NCBI GenBank assembly: GCA_019637855.1
Contig: JAHBUX010000001.1
Coordinates: 705,337-769,336, forward strand
Length of the DNA stretch: 64,000 nt
Reading direction: 5' to 3'
From: Bdellovibrionales bacterium
GTDB taxonomy: Bacteria; Bdellovibrionota; Bdellovibrionia; Bdellovibrionales; UBA1609
Shown here: in pieces, positions 23,306-33,185 of the stretch
Numbering within the stretch: position 1 is the stretch's first letter
Layout of the letters: each line of letters begins with the position of its first letter
Notes under the pieces: generated by a model
Told to the model about the DNA's origin: nothing
Databases searched by the model: none
Seen by the model: the letters and a program-made list of their open reading frames with translations, nothing else
Position numbers and translations under genes: made by a program

Positions 23306-25237
23306 ATGAGAAACGTCATAAAGGTCCTTATCGTCGACGATGACAAATCCAGCGCTACGCTGTTGAGTGAAGTCGTTAAACGATTGGGGTTTAAACCTAT
23401 TATTGCGATGAAAGCCACCGACGGTTTGAACGTGGCTAAATTGCAAACTGTGCACGCGGCGATTATTGACGTGTTGTTGCCGAAAATCGGTGGCGTGGAC
23501 TTGGCGCTGGAATTCCGCAAAACCAAGTTCGCCGAAAATCCCATCATCTTTGTCAGCGGTGTATTCAAAGACAAAAACTTCGCCACGGAATCTATCAGGA
23601 AGACGGGTGCGCTCGAATTCCTATTCAAACCGTTCAATGCGGAAGAACTGCAGACCGCTTTAAGTAATGCTCTGGCCAGCCAAATGGTGACCGAGAAAAT
23701 GACGGCCCAGTCGTTGCTCGTGCGTCGTTTGGATTCAACACGCGACAAAGCCAAAGCCATTGAGCATTTGGAGCAGGTGCGAGGCCTGGAATTCCCTTTC
23801 GTACTCAGCATTTTGTTGGATGCCGGCCTTTCCGGTCACCTGAACATCGTAAACGATGCGGGCGAGATCTTCGGCGTGACTTTCTCTAAAGGTACAATCG
23901 CCGAAGTGGACAGCACTGAATCTCAGGTGACAGGCGTTCTCGCTCTTATCAAGAACGGCTTTATGACCCAGGAGGACTTTGATGCGTTCCAAACGGAAGC
24001 GTCTAAAAAGCTCCCGCTGGATCGTCTGGTGCAAGAGGGTTTGGTCAGTCCACACGCGGTCGCAGTCGCCAAGCATGAGCAGATCTTGCACGATTTCAAA
24101 TCGATTTGCGCTTCACAAACTATGCAGGTGAATTTTGTTCCGCAGGAAGATTCCGAAACGCCGCCCAAGCACGCCGTGAAAATGAAAGAGCTTTTGCGCA
24201 TCATGGCTTCGGCTATGGATGAATTTTTCCCAGCCTCTTATTTGGCCGAGTTTTATTCCGTAGTGAAGGCGTCCCCCATGCACTTGGCGCGCACCCCGGA
24301 TCAAGTCGCTCCGATTTGGGAGTCGAAACTGTTTTCTCCGCTCACGGCGTTGCGCCAGGCGGTTGAAGAGGGTGGAACTCTAGAGACTGTGCTTGCGGCT
24401 CATCCGAAGATGATCGCGCAGGTCTATCAGTGTTTGCACTATCTTGTGCTCAGTCGCAATGTGGTGTTCGATGATGTTCAGCGCACGAAGAGTCTCAACA
24501 CCATGTTGGAACGCTATCAGCAGCTGTTAGATCAGATCAGTGGTAAAACACCCGACAAGGTGTTCGAATATTTCGGTGGCGGCGAACGCCCTGCGCCCTC
24601 CGCTGTTTTGCGGATGTGGGATCAATATCAGAAGTCCAACAGCCCGGATCAGTTGCCCAAAGACGCCACGCAAGAGCTACGCGATCTTTGCCAACGTTGC
24701 TACGATATTTTCGAAGGTGCTAAGGATGTGATGGCTGATGAGCAGAAGCGTGCGGCACTTTTCGAATCGCTCAAGGTCGAAGGTCATGCACGTCATAAAA
24801 AATCCAATGAGATGGCCGCTCAAGCCCTTGAGCTGCTGCGCAAAGGACAGTTCGAAAAAGCGATAGCCATCTGTAAAGAAGCGATGGCTGTGCAATCGAC
24901 GTCTTTGACATTCTTGATTCAAACATGGGCCCAGGTGAAAGGTGGCGTGGTCACGCAAAAGCCTCAGCTGCTCGAGTTGGTGAAGAAGCTTGACGGTATG
25001 GCGCCAGACGATCGCAAATCGACTTACTGGTATATGACCATGGGACTCTTGAAGAAGGCCTTGTTGGATGTATCCGCCATTTCCATGTTTGAAAAGGTGA
25101 TCGAAATGGATTCAACCTTTATGGAAGCGCGCCGCGAGTTGAACTCCATCAGCCAGACCAACACACGCAAGGTCGATATTCTAAACGGGGATATCTCGGC
25201 CGTGGTCAGTCAGCTCTTTCGTACCAAAGCCAAGTGA
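23306..25237 (+). CDS. Receiver-PATAN-helical repeat effector protein
   Basis: A 643-residue protein. Residues 1-125 are a receiver with D11-D13, phospho-site D55 (I-I-D-V-L-L-P) and F-K-P-F. About 148-290 resemble a DUF4388/PATAN module (S-G-H-L-N-I, V-T-F-S-K-G-T-I-A-E-V-D), a protein-interaction domain common in response regulators of gliding and predatory bacteria. The remainder is helical, with TPR-like repeats near 500-640 (A-L-E-L-L-R-K-G-Q-F-E-K-A-I-A-I-C). No DNA-binding domain is seen, so the output is probably protein contact. It lies 67 bases after the CheY-like gene; its last 57 bases overlap the convergent trmJ gene. Confidence 0.8.
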   Translation: MRNVIKVLIVDDDKSSATLLSEVVKRLGFKPIIAMKATDGLNVAKLQTVHAAIIDVLLPKIGGVDLALEFRKTKFAENPIIFVSGVFKDKNFATESIRKTGALEFLFKPFNAEELQTALSNALASQMVTEKMTAQSLLVRRLDSTRDKAKAIEHLEQVRGLEFPFVLSILLDAGLSGHLNIVNDAGEIFGVTFSKGTIAEVDSTESQVTGVLALIKNGFMTQEDFDAFQTEASKKLPLDRLVQEGLVSPHAVAVAKHEQILHDFKSICASQTMQVNFVPQEDSETPPKHAVKMKELLRIMASAMDEFFPASYLAEFYSVVKASPMHLARTPDQVAPIWESKLFSPLTALRQAVEEGGTLETVLAAHPKMIAQVYQCLHYLVLSRNVVFDDVQRTKSLNTMLERYQQLLDQISGKTPDKVFEYFGGGERPAPSAVLRMWDQYQKSNSPDQLPKDATQELRDLCQRCYDIFEGAKDVMADEQKRAALFESLKVEGHARHKKSNEMAAQALELLRKGQFEKAIAICKEAMAVQSTSLTFLIQTWAQVKGGVVTQKPQLLELVKKLDGMAPDDRKSTYWYMTMGLLKKALLDVSAISMFEKVIEMDSTFMEARRELNSISQTNTRKVDILNGDISAVVSQLFRTKAK

Positions 25238-25945
25238 CTTCAACTTCCTGATGTTCTGCTGCAGGACTGCTTCCAACACCTGAATTTCGTGTTGCGTGGG
25301 CAGGTTTTGCAAAAACAAACGGCGTAGCGTGAGAAATGCGCTAGCGCGACGGGCATTCACGTCAAAACCCATGGCGGTAAGCCACTCTTTGATCAACTCA
25401 TCGGGAAAGTACAGCGGCTGCACGGCCGGTGCATTTTCGTCCGTGACTTGAGCAGGAAGTTCCGTTGGCGGGAATTGGTCGCGAACCACATAAAGAGCCA
25501 AGAGCACGGCCTGTGCGAGATTCAAACTGCCGAACTCGCCGTACACCGGCAGATGGCAGGCAAAGTTCACATGCGCCAGATCGCTGCTATCGAGCCCATC
25601 GGACTCGGGCCCAAAGATCAGATAAAGATTTTTGAAGCTTTGTGGATCGACGGCCGACAATTGCTCTTTAAGAGGCAGCACTTTGCGGTTGCCGCCGCCG
25701 CGGCGGGTGAGAGCGATACGTAAACCATCACCTTCGCTGGCGTAAAATTCAGCCCAACTGGCGTAAACGGTCATGGTGCGCAGCTGATCTTGTGCTCCCG
25801 CCGCCAACTGCCGGGCCTTCGAATTGATCTCGCAGCGTGGATCGATCAGAATCAGGCGCCCGCCGCCCATATTGGCCACGGCTCGCGCGGCTGCGCCAAT
25901 ATTGCCGGAGGTTTCCGAACGCACTAAGATAGTGTGAATGTTCAT
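25181..25945 (-). CDS. trmJ: TrmJ-type tRNA/rRNA 2'-O-methyltransferase (SpoU/TrmH family)
   Basis: A 254-residue SPOUT methyltransferase. Motif 1 is N-I-G-A-A-A-R-A-V (about 15-23) with the catalytic-type Asn and Arg; motif 2 is I-F-G-P-E-S-D-G-L (about 117-125); motif 3 S-L-N-L-A-Q-A-V closes the trefoil knot. The domain order and length fit TrmJ, which methylates position 32 of the tRNA anticodon loop; other SpoU targets cannot be excluded. The start shares ATGA with the end of the aromatic hydroxylase gene. Its 3' end overlaps the convergent receiver-PATAN gene by 57 bases. Confidence 0.88.
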   Translation of the reverse strand: MNIHTILVRSETSGNIGAAARAVANMGGGRLILIDPRCEINSKARQLAAGAQDQLRTMTVYASWAEFYASEGDGLRIALTRRGGGNRKVLPLKEQLSAVDPQSFKNLYLIFGPESDGLDSSDLAHVNFACHLPVYGEFGSLNLAQAVLLALYVVRDQFPPTELPAQVTDENAPAVQPLYFPDELIKEWLTAMGFDVNARRASAFLTLRRLFLQNLPTQHEIQVLEAVLQQNIRKLKSLGFGTKELTDHGRDIPV

Positions 25946-27696
25946 AGCCGCCGCTCAGCCAGTTCCACACCGTCGGCGACGGATTGGCGGGTGGTCTCCG
26001 ATGCGAAATGGTCGGGATTTAAACGCGTTCGCAGCTCTGTGCGTTCGGAGTCGGGAAGTCCCAACGTGTAGCTGAGCTCTAAGAGTTCCACGCCTGGAAG
26101 CCATTCTTCGGTCGACGTGCTCATAAAATCTTTAACGAGCTTGCGGAATTCGGTGACACTGCCGGCACCAGGCTTGTTGCGCTCCCGCAGATTGCGTAAA
26201 TCCTGAAACATCGCGTGGCGTTTCCGTTCTGCAGATGGGAAAGTTTTTGCCGGAACCAAGCGTGCCGCAAAATCTTCGTTCGCTTGCCCGTAGTGCGAGC
26301 GGTCAGCTGGGCCACCAAACACCGATTCCACTTCCGCGCCCACAGCCATATCGTATTCGCCCCAGGCGGGGTCAAAAAGCAGCTTAGAGCCCAGGGTCAC
26401 TTTGCAGTCGCGCCAAGTGATCAGCAAAAGAGTTCGGCCTTTGTACAGCCAGTCCTTTACATAGCCCTCAACCACCACGCCGGATTGAAACTGCAAGCGC
26501 GCCTTCTCTCCTCGGCGAATCCCCAGACGATCCAAATCCAGTGTGGTCATCAGATAGGGACTGCTCTCTTCGCCGGCAAGCAATCCCAGCGGGCAGGAAA
26601 ATCCGTGCGGATGGCGGGCGGTGCCGTGCCCGTCCAACTGCTCGTACTCGAAGGAGAGCTGCGAAGGCCCATCGAATTGGAGATAAGCGGGAAGACCATC
26701 CGCAGTAAGGACAAAGCTCTTCAACACTCCAGAGACTTGAAGCCCCGAATCCAATTGCGCCGTATTGACGGTGGCCGCTTCGCGCGCACGCGCGAGGCCG
26801 AAGACACCCCCACGGCGATAGGCCAACTGAACCGCCAGTTGCTCAAGGACTTCACCGAGATGGGCGAAGCTATCTGTAACAAAGAGTTGAGGCTGCGGTT
26901 CGGTGATATCGTAAGTGAAATTCACGCAATCGACGGTCAGCGGAATTTTTTTAACCTTAGGATCCAGACATTCGCGCGATTCGCCCACGGAGGACAGCAA
27001 GCCTGCACCGAAAATGCGCGGTTGCTTGATATCGCCAATAAGGCCGTACTCCGCCGTCCACCAGTTCATGCGTGACAACAAGGCGGCTTCGGAAACCCCA
27101 CGCATGCTGGCGTTGATCTCATTCAAACGCTTTTCGGCGCGTGTGATCTCTTCGACACTTGAACGTGGATCCTCTTTGATATCGCTCAGAATACGAATAG
27201 CTTCGTATTGATCCATGTCTTCTTTGCTGATGATCGAGTGGCGCGCCACTTCCCCGTACTGGCGCAGATAAGTGGCGTATTCCGGATGTACCAAAATCGG
27301 TGCGTGACCGGCGGCTTCATGAACAATATCGGGGGCCGGAGTGTATTGCAGATGCGCGAGAGTGCGCATGTCACTCGCAATAGGCAACACACCGATAGCT
27401 TGAAATTCCATAAAGGCGGCGGGAGGAATAAAGCCGCTGACGGGGACCGCACCCCAGCCAAATCGTTCGAGGTGTTGATCGATGCTTTCAATGTTCGGAA
27501 TACGATCGACGCTAATGCCGGTCTTCTCTAAACCGCTCAGGTAACTTTCATGCGCATGCTTAGTCAGAAAGCTTTTCAGCTGCCGCATGATATAGCGCCA
27601 TACCGCTTGGTCTTCGGGAGTGTAGCGCGCGTAGTTCTGATCCACGATGTACTTACGCAGGTGGATCGGCACTTTGGCGTGCGTACTCTCGGTCAT
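25942..27696 (-). CDS. Aromatic amino acid (phenylalanine) hydroxylase with long C-terminal extension
   Basis: A 584-residue tetrahydropterin-dependent hydroxylase, most likely making tyrosine from phenylalanine. The catalytic domain is in the first about 310 residues: iron ligands H126 and H131 (V-H-E-A-A-G-H-A-P) and the Glu in W-T-A-E-Y-G-L-I-G. Typical bacterial PhhA proteins have 260-300 residues; here about 270 more follow, including beta-rich parts (V-V-V-E-G-Y-V-K-D-W-L-Y-K-G-R-T-L) and a helical end. I do not recognise that extension. The start at 27696 shares ATGA with the hldD stop. It would feed the HPPD/HmgA route 10 kb away. No pterin-recycling dehydratase is adjacent. Confidence 0.88.
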   Translation of the reverse strand: MTESTHAKVPIHLRKYIVDQNYARYTPEDQAVWRYIMRQLKSFLTKHAHESYLSGLEKTGISVDRIPNIESIDQHLERFGWGAVPVSGFIPPAAFMEFQAIGVLPIASDMRTLAHLQYTPAPDIVHEAAGHAPILVHPEYATYLRQYGEVARHSIISKEDMDQYEAIRILSDIKEDPRSSVEEITRAEKRLNEINASMRGVSEAALLSRMNWWTAEYGLIGDIKQPRIFGAGLLSSVGESRECLDPKVKKIPLTVDCVNFTYDITEPQPQLFVTDSFAHLGEVLEQLAVQLAYRRGGVFGLARAREAATVNTAQLDSGLQVSGVLKSFVLTADGLPAYLQFDGPSQLSFEYEQLDGHGTARHPHGFSCPLGLLAGEESSPYLMTTLDLDRLGIRRGEKARLQFQSGVVVEGYVKDWLYKGRTLLLITWRDCKVTLGSKLLFDPAWGEYDMAVGAEVESVFGGPADRSHYGQANEDFAARLVPAKTFPSAERKRHAMFQDLRNLRERNKPGAGSVTEFRKLVKDFMSTSTEEWLPGVELLELSYTLGLPDSERTELRTRLNPDHFASETTRQSVADGVELAERRL

Positions 27697-28661
27697 AGGT
27701 AGGGGTCTTTCTGCGCCAGGTGCTGAGTGACGTAGTCTGTGATGCCTTTGTCGAGAGGCCATTGTGGAGAAGAGAGTTTTTGCGCCAGCAGGCGGTCCAT
27801 CTTGGCTTCGGTAAAATACTGGTATTGGTCGCGGATATTGGCCGGCACTTCGATCCAATCGATATTCAGTGCCTGGCCCATGCTGGCAAAAGTCGCGCGG
27901 GCTAAATCCAGCCAGCTGCGAGCTTTGCCGTAACCCATATTGTATATACCTGACTGCACGGATGGAGTGCTCATCATCTCGCGCATCCAGCGCGTGATGT
28001 CTTTGACATAAACGAAGTCGCGCAGCTGCTCACCATCTTTATACAAAGGATTGTACGATTTAAACAATTTCAAGCGGCCAGTGGCTTGAATCTGATTGTA
28101 GGCCTTGAAAGCCACGCTGCTCATATCACCTTTGTGATACTCGTTCGGTCCATACACGTTGAAGAAACGTAAGCCATACCAGCGCGGCGGTGTATTCTTT
28201 TGTGCCAAGGCCCAGATATCAAACTTCAATTTGGACCAGCCGTACAGGTTCAACGGCGTGAACTCCGCTGGCGAGGTGGCATCGTCAAACCCCTTTTTTC
28301 CATCGCCGTAGGTGGCGCCGCTGGAGGCATAGATCAAAGGTTTCTTGTGACGGGCGCAGAAGTCCCAAACTTTCTGTGAATACTCCACGTTGTTGCGCTG
28401 AAGATAGGCTTCGTCGGTCTCGGTGGTGGAGGAGCAGGCGCCCATATGGTAGACGCCTTTGATCTCGGCCGCGTGTCTTTCCATAAAAAGAAAGAGCGCA
28501 TCGGCTTTAACGAACTCGCGGTATTTGCGCTTTTTCAACAAAGCGCCGCGCTCACCGGGTGGGACGTGATCACAGATCACAATATCGGTTTCACCCTGTT
28601 CATTCAGCTCCCAAACAAGAGCGCTGCCTATAAAGCCCGTCGCACCGGTGACAATCCACAT
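27693..28661 (-). CDS. hldD: ADP-L-glycero-D-manno-heptose 6-epimerase
   Basis: HldD (RfaD) epimerises ADP-heptose for the LPS inner core. The 322-residue extended SDR protein has T-G-A-T-G-F-I-G-S (about 5-13) for NADP, the family-typical H-M-G-A-C-S-S-T-T-E (about 72-81) and a Y-G-W-S-K catalytic Tyr/Lys pair. R-F-F-N-V-Y-G-P-N-E-Y-H-K-G and K-D-I-T-R-W also fit. Its presence shows the cell makes heptose-containing LPS. It lies alone with the hydroxylase and trmJ downstream; hldE and other core genes are not here. Confidence 0.94.
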   Translation of the reverse strand: MWIVTGATGFIGSALVWELNEQGETDIVICDHVPPGERGALLKKRKYREFVKADALFLFMERHAAEIKGVYHMGACSSTTETDEAYLQRNNVEYSQKVWDFCARHKKPLIYASSGATYGDGKKGFDDATSPAEFTPLNLYGWSKLKFDIWALAQKNTPPRWYGLRFFNVYGPNEYHKGDMSSVAFKAYNQIQATGRLKLFKSYNPLYKDGEQLRDFVYVKDITRWMREMMSTPSVQSGIYNMGYGKARSWLDLARATFASMGQALNIDWIEVPANIRDQYQYFTEAKMDRLLAQKLSSPQWPLDKGITDYVTQHLAQKDPYL

Positions 28662-28726
28662 AGCCCTTGAAAATAAGGGTTTTGCGGGCCGACAACAAGG
28701 CCAAAATAGGCGTCTTTAAAGGAAAA

Positions 28727-30562
28727 TCAGATGTCTTCGCGATAGCCGTGAACGACGGAGAGGAATGAACGCACCAGCGGCTTCATTGACAGAGATTCGC
28801 CCGTGCCCACGCCTTGAAAGTCGGGATTGAGCGTTTGCGCCGCCGTCAGCTCTTCAATAGCCGCTTGAATTTCCGCGTCGGAAAGTCCGCGTCGGCGATA
28901 GCGCAAGATCTCGTCGACGATATGAATCAACGCATTGCCCGTGATCCGGCTATCGTGATTGATGCGGGCTGAGCGCGAGTGCAACGACCTGACGGTCTTC
29001 TCCCAAGTCACCGGCCCGCTTACGCGACGGACCACTTTCAAGTAGAGATTTTGCCATTGCGCGATCTTCTGACGCAGGCGCCGTGTCAGTTTGCGGTCTT
29101 TGCGCGCCGCTTGCGACGAGAGAATCCAATCAAAAAACTCTTCCGCTTCCACCGGAATGACACCGTCCATCGGCAAGCCATCCAGGTACTCAGCCATGCT
29201 CGAAAGTGCGACGCGCATATTGAAGATCGCAGGGCGATGAACGCCATCGGCCACTTTGCGCAACTTGCGATAGGTCTTTATGCGCTCGAACTCGGAGTGC
29301 GCGTTGTACAAAGCCTGCACGTCACGACGATGTTTGTGCATCAAGATTCGGCGCAGAGGCTCGGCAAAGCCGACCTGGTAGAGGAAGCGTTCCAGGCAGA
29401 ACGTATCGAAGTGACGATCAAACGCTTTGAGGTGCGCACTCTTCGAATATTGCTTCCATGTTTTTTTCACGCCGGTTTGCGCGTAGTCCACCAATTGCAC
29501 GAAGGTTTGCACCATGTCGCGTGCCTTCAAACGCTGCTCATTCAAATTGGTCGAAAAACGCTCGACATCGTCATAGCGATATTGATCGTGGCGCAGGCCG
29601 AACTGGCGGACGCTACCGTAGTCAATGATGCCGGCGTCAGCCAACACATTGTCGCCGTCCCAATCCAACCACGCGAATATGTAATCGCGTTCCAGCAAAG
29701 CGGCAAAACGCGCGAACGAACGCGTCACTTCTTCTAATAGGTGAGTGTAACGATCTTTGTCGTCGGGGCGGATCGGCCACACCTTATTGGTGAACTGGCG
29801 ATCGATCAGATAGTCCAAAGAGCGTTTCAACGGTTCAATCTTACCTTGCTTCAAATACAAGAACAGGTGAGCGGGGCGAATCAGATTAGGAGCCGCGCGA
29901 ACGCCGATACCAACACCTTTTCCCAGATCGATGATGGCCAACACGCGCTCGGTCGGTATGCCGTTGCGGTGAAACACTTCCGCCAGAATCGCCGCTCCAA
30001 AGAGCTCATCGATTTCGGCCATTCCGCAACCATAGCCATGATCGGTATTGCCGGACTTCAAAGGTTGACCGGCTTCCACGGCTCCGGGTGCTAAAGCGGT
30101 GACGCCAGTTCCGCGGCTGGAGATATCCCAGAAGCGACCTTTGTTGAAGACGATGCCGTTCCAAATACAGCGGCCGTCCCCACTTGTGCGACCAGTTTTG
30201 TCCGAGTGCTGCAACTGCAAATAGCGCGTGGCCATGTATTTGTTGGGCTTGATGGAAGAGCGCGCGAAGCGGGCGCCATTCTGCACGTCGTATTCATTGA
30301 TGATGCGCACGCAGAAAGTTTCCAAAACTTTTTCGCTCAGCTTTTTGTTCATGCGATTGGGGTGTGATTTGGCAATTAGTCCCATGTCTTTAGCGAGATC
30401 GAAATTGAAGTAGGAAACTTTACCGCCGGAAAGCTGGCGTACGGGGTATAGAATAGAGCCTTCGGGAACCTTCTCGGCCCATGGATGTAGGCCGTTCATC
30501 TGTTCGAACGCGCCGTACTCTTCTTCACTTGTTAACTTACGGAAACTCTTAACAGCTTTCAT
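28727..30562 (-). CDS. Divergent SelO/YdiU-like pseudokinase (possible protein AMPylase)
   Basis: A 611-residue protein. I aligned it by eye to SelO: S-G-D-G-R (about 127), W-D-I-S-S-R-G-T-G where SelO has L-K-G-A-G, an E-containing helix before G-I-P-T-E-R-V-L-A-I-I (SelO G-I-P-T-T-R-A-L), G-V-R-A-A-P-N-L-I-R for M-R-V-A-P-S-H-L-R, W-D-G-D-N-V-L for N-T-D-N-M, and I-I-D-Y-G for L-D-Y-G. The order matches throughout, so SelO kinship is probable. SelO attaches AMP to redox proteins. Here the ATP-contacting Lys appears replaced by Arg, and the protein is about 130 residues longer than E. coli YdiU. It follows a peroxiredoxin and an ATP-grasp-like gene on the same strand. Activity is uncertain. 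Confidence 0.6.
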   Translation of the reverse strand: MKAVKSFRKLTSEEEYGAFEQMNGLHPWAEKVPEGSILYPVRQLSGGKVSYFNFDLAKDMGLIAKSHPNRMNKKLSEKVLETFCVRIINEYDVQNGARFARSSIKPNKYMATRYLQLQHSDKTGRTSGDGRCIWNGIVFNKGRFWDISSRGTGVTALAPGAVEAGQPLKSGNTDHGYGCGMAEIDELFGAAILAEVFHRNGIPTERVLAIIDLGKGVGIGVRAAPNLIRPAHLFLYLKQGKIEPLKRSLDYLIDRQFTNKVWPIRPDDKDRYTHLLEEVTRSFARFAALLERDYIFAWLDWDGDNVLADAGIIDYGSVRQFGLRHDQYRYDDVERFSTNLNEQRLKARDMVQTFVQLVDYAQTGVKKTWKQYSKSAHLKAFDRHFDTFCLERFLYQVGFAEPLRRILMHKHRRDVQALYNAHSEFERIKTYRKLRKVADGVHRPAIFNMRVALSSMAEYLDGLPMDGVIPVEAEEFFDWILSSQAARKDRKLTRRLRQKIAQWQNLYLKVVRRVSGPVTWEKTVRSLHSRSARINHDSRITGNALIHIVDEILRYRRRGLSDAEIQAAIEELTAAQTLNPDFQGVGTGESLSMKPLVRSFLSVVHGYREDI

Positions 30563-30617
30563 AACCAGCTCAATTCTTTATCGGCCGGTTCGCTCTCGAG
30601 GTTTAGCTTTTGAGACA

Positions 30618-31808
30618 CTAGAACTGGACGGAAGTAAAGCCGCCCATGGGAGATGAGAAGTTAGTGACTTGCCCTTGATAGATGCGCGCACAGACCAGCT
30701 GAATGCGATCTTGATAGACATAGAAACGAACGTCAAATTTCCAGTTATTTAGCACACTTCGCTCGTCGTCGGTGGGCACCTTCTGAGCCGGCTGAAAGCG
30801 CTGGATAAGGATGTCATCGGCCATTAAACGCTCGAACACTTTGCGCGACACACTTTCGCCGCGATAGACGGATTTTCCGCCATAGGAACGCTTGGGCTTG
30901 AAAAACAATCCGCGACGTTGAGCCCAGATCTCGTCCACCGAGCCGAAGGCGGACTTCTCGAAAGTGGGAATCAGGATGCGCAAGATGGCCTCTTTGTCCT
31001 GTTCTGAGGCGCCCGCCTTTTCGAGAAAACCGGGCTCCGTGAGTTGCACCAGGCGTTGTTTGTCGGCCAAACGCCAATATTCTTTCGGATTGGGAGAGAC
31101 ACTGACGCCACCCAAGGCATAGGCCTCACGCAAAGCTTGATGCTGAGATTCTTCTAAATAAAAATCAGTGAGACGGTTGTAGACCAGATTGACCGGCATG
31201 CCGCCTGCGGTTTTCAACTGTCCGCCATCGAGTACAAAATCTTTGCCGTCGCAAAATTCAGCCTGCCAACCCAGTCCCCGGAACCAATCCCGGTACATCA
31301 GAAACTCAAGATACATTTTCTGACCGACGATATCGTCGTCCGTGATGGCGACTTGGGGTGGAGAGCTCAAGCCCGAAAGGCGCAACTCATTTTCAAAACT
31401 CGCGCGTAGGTCTTGCAGCGGTTGATAGCGATCCAGAGGGATCTGTTTGTGCACCATCTCCATCAAAGAAGACAGCATAAAGCCCGAAGCGTTGGTGTTG
31501 ATCTCGACTAAGAAGCACTCGCCGGCTTCATTGGTGTGAAAATCATAGGCCATCAAGACCGAATCATTTCTGATCGGCAGGCCCGCCATTCCGGCTTCGT
31601 CTTCCAATAAAGACTGGTAGGCCGGTTGGCGCGAAACGCGGAACAAGGCCTCGATCGCAGCTTGAGCATGGTTATACACGCTCTTCGGCAAACGCAACTC
31701 GAGCGGTGAAATCAAATGATCCCAAGCCACTTCGGGCAATTCGCTTAAGCCCGCAAAGGTTTTGCGGGCCAGCCCATCTAAATTTTTATAGAAATGGTTG
31801 TAAGACAA
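30618..31808 (-). CDS. ATP-grasp-like protein of unknown substrate
   Basis: A 396-residue cytoplasmic protein. Features point to an ATP-grasp fold: an acid-rich segment C-F-L-V-E-I-N-T-N-A-S-G near 103-114, the phosphate-loop-like F-F-K-P-K-R-S-Y-G-G-K-S (about 299-310) and a late F-D-V-R-F-Y-V-Y strand. E-I-N-T-N resembles the Mg-binding E-x-N of ATP-grasp ligases but lies before the glycine loop, as expected for a circularly permuted member. I cannot name the product. The start is a TTG directly after the peroxiredoxin stop, without a clear ribosome site, so translation probably depends on that gene. The SelO-like gene follows after 55 bases. Confidence 0.6.
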   Translation of the reverse strand: MSYNHFYKNLDGLARKTFAGLSELPEVAWDHLISPLELRLPKSVYNHAQAAIEALFRVSRQPAYQSLLEDEAGMAGLPIRNDSVLMAYDFHTNEAGECFLVEINTNASGFMLSSLMEMVHKQIPLDRYQPLQDLRASFENELRLSGLSSPPQVAITDDDIVGQKMYLEFLMYRDWFRGLGWQAEFCDGKDFVLDGGQLKTAGGMPVNLVYNRLTDFYLEESQHQALREAYALGGVSVSPNPKEYWRLADKQRLVQLTEPGFLEKAGASEQDKEAILRILIPTFEKSAFGSVDEIWAQRRGLFFKPKRSYGGKSVYRGESVSRKVFERLMADDILIQRFQPAQKVPTDDERSVLNNWKFDVRFYVYQDRIQLVCARIYQGQVTNFSSPMGGFTSVQF

Positions 31809-32333
31809 TTATTTGGCGGCGACGAACTTCTCGCCTTTTTTCCAACCGGCACCGCACAGTTCGCCGCTCTTCAGACCTTGCACTACGCGCAGGATTTCTT
31901 TGGAGTCGCGTCCCACGTTCAGATTGTGGATGCCCATGTATTGGATACGGCCTTCAGGATCGATCACGAAAGTGCCGCGAGTGGCAATGCCTTTGTCTTC
32001 CAGCAATACGCCGAAATCACGGGCCACACGTTTAGTGACGTCACCCACCAGCGGGTAACCCAAGTTGCCCAGATCATCTTTGATCCAACGACGGTGCGAA
32101 TGCACGCTGTCGACTGAGCAGCCGATCACTTCGGCGCCCTCAGCCTTGAAATCTTTGAGCGAATCACGGAACTGCGTCAGTTCGGTGGGGCAAACGAATG
32201 TGAAATCGAGAGGGTAGAAGAATAAGACCACCCATTTGCCTTTGTAATCGGCCAAGTTGATATCTTTGAAATCACCACCGTCCACTACGGCTTGAGCAAC
32301 AAATTGCGGGGCGGGTTGACCAATCATCGGCAT
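31809..32333 (-). CDS. Typical 2-Cys peroxiredoxin (AhpC/TSA)
   Basis: A 174-residue thiol peroxidase reducing H2O2 and organic peroxides. The peroxidatic cysteine is C48 in D-F-T-F-V-C-P-T-E, and the resolving cysteine C160 in E-L-C-G-A-G-W. The reductant is probably thioredoxin: no ahpF is near, and trxB lies at 56293. The ATG at 32333 has AAGGAG about 8 bases upstream; an in-frame ATG 13 codons earlier lacks one. It heads an apparent operon with the ATP-grasp-like and SelO-like genes, which suggests a redox role for them. Divergent xthA shares the control region 32334-32417. Confidence 0.94.
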   Translation of the reverse strand: MPMIGQPAPQFVAQAVVDGGDFKDINLADYKGKWVVLFFYPLDFTFVCPTELTQFRDSLKDFKAEGAEVIGCSVDSVHSHRRWIKDDLGNLGYPLVGDVTKRVARDFGVLLEDKGIATRGTFVIDPEGRIQYMGIHNLNVGRDSKEILRVVQGLKSGELCGAGWKKGEKFVAAK

Positions 32334-32417
32334 TGTATAACTCCTTTTGGCTAGAAAACTATGAAGTGCCATAGATTCGCTCCGGCATCAAGGTGGAGTG
32401 GAAGAAGGAGTGTGTAA

Positions 32418-33185
32418 GTGAAGATCATCACCTGGAATGTGAATGGCATTCGCTCTGTCGTACAAAAAGGTTTTTACGAGTTTATCGAGCGCGAAAACCC
32501 CGACATCCTCTGCCTGCAAGAGACCAAGGCCCATCCGGATCAGCTCGAAGACGCTCTGAGAGCTCCGCTCGGGTGGAACACGTTCTGGTCAGCCGCCCAA
32601 CGCCCGGGCTACTCCGGAACAGCTACTTGGAGTCGCGAAGCTCCCGCGCAAGTGACACACGGCTTCGGGGTGCCTAGATTTGACGCGGAAGGGCGGTTAG
32701 TGGTCTCACGCTTTAAGGATTTCGTGCTCTATAACTGCTACTTCCCCAATGGCGGAATGGGGCCAGAGCGCCACGAATTCAAACAAGAATTTTTGAAGCG
32801 CTTTGGCCATCACCTGCAGCGGCAAGTGCAAGCGGGCGAGAACGTGATCGTGGTGGGCGACTACAATGTCGCCTACTTGGATATCGACGTTTATGATCCG
32901 AAGGCGCTGGCGAAGGAGACCGGTTTTTTGCCTGAAGAGAGGCAGTGGATGACGTCCTTTCTGGAGGGGGGATTTATCGATGGCTATCGTTATTTTCATC
33001 CGCAGGAGAAGCACCGCTACACCTGGTGGGCTTATTTCCAAAATGCGCGCCCAGGCAATCGTGGTTGGCGTATTGATCATATTTGCGTTTCACGTAGCTT
33101 AGAAAAGAGAATGAAGTCAGTGCAGATCTTGGATCAGCAACAGGGCAGCGATCATTGCCCCGTGGTGATGGAGATAGATATTTGA
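32418..33185 (+). CDS. xthA: Exodeoxyribonuclease III / AP endonuclease
   Basis: XthA cuts DNA at abasic sites and degrades 3' ends in base-excision repair. The 255-residue endonuclease/exonuclease/phosphatase-fold protein begins M-K-I-I-T-W-N-V-N-G and shows C-L-Q-E-T-K (catalytic Glu), V-V-G-D-Y-N-V-A (Asp-Asn), W-R-I-D-H-I-C-V-S and a final G-S-D-H-C-P-V (catalytic Asp-His). It starts with GTG behind AAGGAG. Divergence from the peroxiredoxin gene would suit shared induction by oxidative stress. Its stop overlaps the TTG start of the SH3 protein. Confidence 0.96.
   Translation: MKIITWNVNGIRSVVQKGFYEFIERENPDILCLQETKAHPDQLEDALRAPLGWNTFWSAAQRPGYSGTATWSREAPAQVTHGFGVPRFDAEGRLVVSRFKDFVLYNCYFPNGGMGPERHEFKQEFLKRFGHHLQRQVQAGENVIVVGDYNVAYLDIDVYDPKALAKETGFLPEERQWMTSFLEGGFIDGYRYFHPQEKHRYTWWAYFQNARPGNRGWRIDHICVSRSLEKRMKSVQILDQQQGSDHCPVVMEIDI

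Follow-up and report, generated by a model that had tools for sequence, protein, structure and literature searches.

The 611-residue SelO-like protein encoded in the window (the whole 64,000-nucleotide stretch of Bdellovibrionales DNA analyzed here) has the SelO fold as judged from its structural model, and by sequence it belongs to a separate family, distinct from SelO. The family is widespread across the phylum to which Bdellovibrio-like predators belong and is unannotated; a literature search found no paper mentioning SelO together with Bdellovibrio. The known relative, SelO, is an AMP-transfer enzyme with a kinase fold that transfers AMP by means of a flipped ATP, with Lys113 at the gamma-phosphate. 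The family described here has the SelO fold without the Lys113-Glu136 pair, while the remainder of the ATP site is retained.

The model of the protein has a pLDDT of 91.8, its last residues also being modeled with high confidence. In Foldseek, nine PDB entries matched at E ≤ 0.001, each of them a SelO/YdiU structure, with E from 9.6e-13 (9l29) to 7e-10 and TM to target of 0.64–0.74 (0.74 for 6eac), and the next structural matches were ordinary kinases at E of at least 0.03. The first-pass annotation, made by eye, had proposed a divergent SelO-type protein, and the predicted fold with its kinase core agrees with that proposal. An expected match to SelO profiles was found in part: the NCBIfam YdiU model recognized the protein (E 1.6e-7), but PF02696 scored it at 16.9 bits against a cut-off of 22.8 (E 0.003), which is sub-threshold. 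Across the family, PF02696 matched 13 of 32 members at E ≤ 0.1 (best member 4.7e-14), and a family profile search of the PDB recovered SelO at E 1.4e-3; single-protein sequence searches of the PDB gave no match. Full-length members scored at least 427 bits; in these searches no other SelO relative reached 40. A six-frame search of the source genome with the SelO profile found nothing at E ≤ 0.001, and therefore no canonical SelO is recognized in this genome.

Table 1. Features of the three-gene stretch, in window coordinates; residue counts refer to 118 aligned SelO-like members.
Feature	Position	Strand	Remarks
SelO-like protein	28727..30562	-	611 aa
Fixed C-terminal tail E-D-I	28730..28738	-	family end [E/D]-x-[I/L/V/F]
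D314-Y-G (IDYGS); D314 is the SelO D262 equivalent	29615..29623	-	Asp 118/118
D304-N305 (DGDN), SelO D252-N253 equivalents	29648..29653	-	118/118
R222 to R229, SelO Arg176 and Arg183 equivalents with the residues between	29876..29899	-	both Arg 118/118
R150, SelO Lys113 position (SSRGTG vs LKGxG)	30113..30115	-	R 89, C 23, S 6, K 0 of 118
ATP-grasp ligase, glutathione synthetase / glutathionylspermidine synthetase fold (predicted)	30618..31808	-	396 aa, TTG start
E102-I-N104 of LVEINTNAS, putative metal-site motif	31497..31505	-	E and N invariant
2-Cys peroxiredoxin (AhpC/TSA)	31809..32333	-	alternative upstream ATG start at 32372

In SelO, the gamma-phosphate is held by Lys113, which is supported by Glu136, and also by Arg176 and Arg183, and Mg is bound by Asn253 and Asp262 (PMC8097203). 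Residues at these positions were counted in 118 SelO-like members aligned with canonical SelO proteins of the same phylum (Table 1); the members share kinship, so that 118 of 118 does not amount to 118 independent cases. The Lys of the SelO K-G-A-G motif had been read as Arg, and the Asp-Asn and I-D-Y-G metal sites as retained; the alignment bears out both readings, with R150 at the former position and D304-N305 and D314 invariant. At the Glu136 position, assigned by sequence alignment and not from model coordinates, A, T, S, C or G is found, and E in none of the 118. Nearby position 186 is acidic (E in 112, D in 6 of 118), and from the alignment this residue could stand in for Glu136.

The exact C-terminus is [E/D]-x-[I/L/V/F] in 112 of the 118 members (about 3% by chance for each row, the rows being related and not independent), where canonical SelO of the same phylum ends in CGT. 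The Cys-x-x-Cys/Sec tail motif of SelO, as described in PMC3281104, was not found in the family. The Cys tail is reported as needed for NAD hydrolysis by SelO (PMC13391479), and the SelO-like family is without it. In sum of likeness, the family shares with SelO/YdiU (PF02696) the fold along the whole domain, the GDGR motif, the R176, R183, D252, N253 and D262 equivalents and the possession of a conserved C-terminal tail, but it lacks Lys113, Glu136 and the Cys/Sec tail, and its proteins are longer, with a larger C-terminal part. Because the window protein falls short of the PF02696 cut-off and has neither the Lys-Glu pair nor the Cys/Sec tail, it is not to be filed as SelO proper.

A single-copy, full-length SelO-like gene was present in 92 of the 192 Bdellovibrionota genomes sampled, with 39–57% identity to the query (the query itself excepted), and most members have about 600–660 aa. 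A search of genome contigs turned up 261 relatives and 80 of these were retained, mostly from Bdellovibrionota. The few labeled Nitrospirota, Omnitrophota, Fibrobacterota or Thiogranum are all from metagenome bins, where misbinning is possible; in a sample of 198 genomes from the phylum of one such out-of-phylum carrier (L173), the gene occurred in 2 only.

A second divergent SelO family is found in the same phylum. Its members at L181 (688-3063, +), L182 (4687-7029, +) and L183 (4458-6812, -) have an apparent signal peptide, as seen by eye, and a C-terminal cytidylyltransferase-like (NadD-like) domain (PF01467, E 2e-12 to 4e-14); SelO was recognized in L181 (E 4e-16) and L182 (1e-12). The Lys of KGxGxT is kept in these proteins, and the catalytic TDN is replaced by GN. 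Shorter relatives of this apparently secreted family, without the nucleotidyltransferase domain, are encoded at L184 (3135-4928, -) and L187 (3596-5659, -), and gave no Pfam match at E ≤ 0.01.

The best supported reading of the SelO-like protein, held with middling confidence on its sequence and model, is an active SelO-fold nucleotidyltransferase whose phosphate site has been rebuilt. NTP would be bound in the flipped SelO orientation, R222 and R229 would take over from Lys113 and Glu136 at the buried phosphate, with R150 assisting in the Bdellovibrionia branch, and Mg would be bound by N305 and D314. NMP would be transferred to a protein or peptide, and the E-x-I tail would lie near the active site, as reported for the SelO tail. 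Of this reading, the SelO fold, the residue pattern, the distribution and the fixed C-terminal tail are observed, while the activity, the orientation of the nucleotide and the place of the tail are inferred. The loss of the gamma-phosphate Lys of SelO counts against it; Cys or Ser is found there in about a quarter of members, and therefore nucleotide binding may differ.

The genomic partner of the gene is lineage-specific, being an S51 peptidase in Bacteriovoracia and some others, with nothing fixed in Bdellovibrionales. In Bacteriovoracia, and in a small number of other families, the S51 gene is located downstream of the SelO-like gene as a translationally coupled partner, with neither ligase nor peroxiredoxin beside it, and the start-stop overlap is 4 nt (NTGA) in 19 of 19 junctions read. 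The S51 subfamily, defined by high-scoring matches (>200 bits), was found only in genomes having the SelO-like gene (53/53). In 42 of these 53 genomes the peptidase gene comes next downstream, no more than 89 nt from the match; in the rest it is divergent within about 110 nt (2 genomes), divergent at 2.5 kb (1) or on another contig (8). Outside the order, 47 genomes had both genes, none S51 only, 3 the SelO-like gene only and 88 neither, counts that are not corrected for descent. With S51 peptidases (PepE, Lmo0363, cyanophycinase) the subfamily shares a profile match (E 7e-22 to 7e-4) and the GLSAG and PH motifs, but it stands as a subfamily of its own, the examined member falling far short of the scores that the NCBIfam models of PepE and cyanophycinase require.

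The window's own genome has no S51. It was also absent from six of eight out-of-phylum carriers, one more having a weak match only, and S51 was rejected as a universal partner, since any match, one of them weak, was present in only two of the eight. Given these absences, the peptidase says little about function in the window's lineage. One Bdellovibrionales genome (L095; G112, family f7) carries a SelO-like gene that is of Bacteriovoracia type in the tree, together with an S51 neighbor, and the two were possibly transferred jointly as a unit.

A serious rival, ranked below the nucleotidyltransferase and rather unlikely, holds that a carboxylate, at a peptide end or on an acidic side chain, is turned by the enzyme into an acyl-nucleotide and then handed on to an amine or alcohol, with S51 cleaving or editing the product. 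What speaks for it is that the coupled partner, of the PepE/cyanophycinase type, is a peptidase, and that MchC/MceJ, a distant SelO relative, takes part in peptide modification, being needed to attach a siderophore to microcin (PMC3281104). The conserved C-terminal tail of the family is acidic, and a pseudokinase, SidJ, is a kinase-fold glutamylase (PMC6858067). The MchC/MceJ microcin maturation proteins are likewise very divergent SelO-fold proteins, a likeness known here from the literature, but in the microcin cluster they have an HlyC-like acyltransferase partner. Beside the SelO-like gene neither a precursor peptide nor an acyltransferase was recognized, and S51 is missing in many carriers, the source genome included.

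It is improbable that the protein has lost catalysis and serves as a SelO-fold scaffold or as a sensor of nucleotides: the Lys-Glu pair is missing from all 118 members, which would suit such a role, but in the same 118 both Arg and the three metal-site residues are invariant, as an inactive pocket would not require.

The peroxiredoxin, ATP-grasp-like and SelO-like genes were described in the first-pass annotation as lying on one strand, 0 and 55 bases apart, and the ORF coordinates confirm this, the TTG start of the ligase standing directly behind the peroxiredoxin stop. The SelO-like and ATP-grasp-like ORFs are not due to chance, because full-length relatives of both occur across the phylum. 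Phage or plasmid origin was rejected, as searches gave no matches. The order xth - Prx - ligase - SelO-like - hldD - phenylalanine hydroxylase - SpoU (window 25181-33185 and many other loci) is kept across Bdellovibrionales, with unrelated functions. The surrounding genes, for exonuclease III, heptose epimerase, phenylalanine hydroxylase and SpoU methylase, are thus functionally mixed yet conserved in order, and synteny therefore accounts for much of the adjacency. Tight pairs within the block are Prx-ligase, hldD-PheH and PheH-SpoU.

The peroxiredoxin is, by sequence, an ordinary AhpC/TSA protein, as had been proposed (AhpC-TSA domain E 6.5e-43, 146 bits against a cut-off of 26), with an FVCPTE motif. 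The model of the middle gene's product (pLDDT 92.0) shows an ATP-grasp ligase folded like glutathione synthetase, which upholds the earlier assignment. Its structural matches (E 2e-14 to 1e-11, 13–16% identity) are glutathione and homoglutathione synthetases (3kaj_B, E 2.2e-14), glutathionylspermidine synthetase and YjfC/YgiC. A Pfam search of the 396-aa protein gave no significant match, PF03917 matched 2 of 21 family members (best E 0.003), the window protein not among them, and a PDB profile search found nothing meaningful. With eukaryotic-type glutathione synthetase, glutathionylspermidine synthetase and YgiC/YjfC the ligase has in common the fold, the E-x-N motif and a Gly-rich FKP...G.K motif, but it is only 13–16% identical to them and the window protein is unrecognized by Pfam models. 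Its LVEINTNAS segment, a putative metal-site motif, resembles IEINT of eukaryotic glutathione synthetase. More distant copies of the ligase occur away from the SelO-like gene in Bacteriovoracia genomes (L193, L194, L099).

Enzymes of the glutathione synthetase fold also join quite other carboxylates (PMC12568646), and YjfC/YgiC are reported, in work cited there, as peptide-spermidine ligases. Glutathione biosynthesis fits the fold of the ligase, but searches of the source genome for a glutamate-cysteine ligase came up empty (no PF04107 or PF04262 match), and therefore the enzyme probably does not use gamma-Glu-Cys of the cell's own making; glutathione synthesis from the cell's own precursor is unlikely. 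PF02955 had many matches at middling scores in the source genome, which look like RimK-type cross-matches.

In genomes of the order, presence of the ligase is unrelated to presence of the SelO-like gene (38 genomes with both, 11 with ligase only, 4 with SelO-like gene only, 1 with neither; Fisher P=1). The two are immediate neighbors in 24 of the 45 loci with both, and are otherwise separated by other, often opposite-strand, genes; several genomes have the ligase at the same place and no SelO-like gene. The idea of a functional operon of these two genes is weakened by the independent occurrence and the split loci. Peroxiredoxin and ligase adjoin in 24 of 24 loci holding both (median gap 2 nt), and the peroxiredoxin is missing from many loci. 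Ligase and peroxiredoxin form a tight pair of their own, which lies beside the SelO-like gene mainly through inherited gene order. It is thus highly improbable that the three genes work together as a single redox-linked modification system in which the peroxiredoxin receives AMP, as first suggested: their shared strand and close spacing, the constant Prx-ligase pairing, the glutathione synthetase fold and the role of canonical SelO in redox control (PMC8097203) would fit it, but ligase and SelO-like gene are independent and often parted, a result that under the refuting condition named in the first-pass annotation (genes not co-conserved) counts against the system and not the fold, the peroxiredoxin is often missing, glutamate-cysteine ligase was not found, and sister lineages have a different partner.

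A SelO-derived family with changed chemistry, the Lys-Glu pair being gone and an acidic C-terminal tail standing where SelO has Cys/Sec, in which activated carboxylates would form a peptide or peptide-like bond that the coupled S51 peptidase undoes, is quite unlikely; if true, it would be a writer-eraser pair in predatory bacteria. The S51 coupling in sister lineages gives a first handle on the substrate of the SelO-like protein. A large natural family that has kept the metal site and both Arg, and from which Lys and Glu are gone, offers a direct test of the need for this pair.
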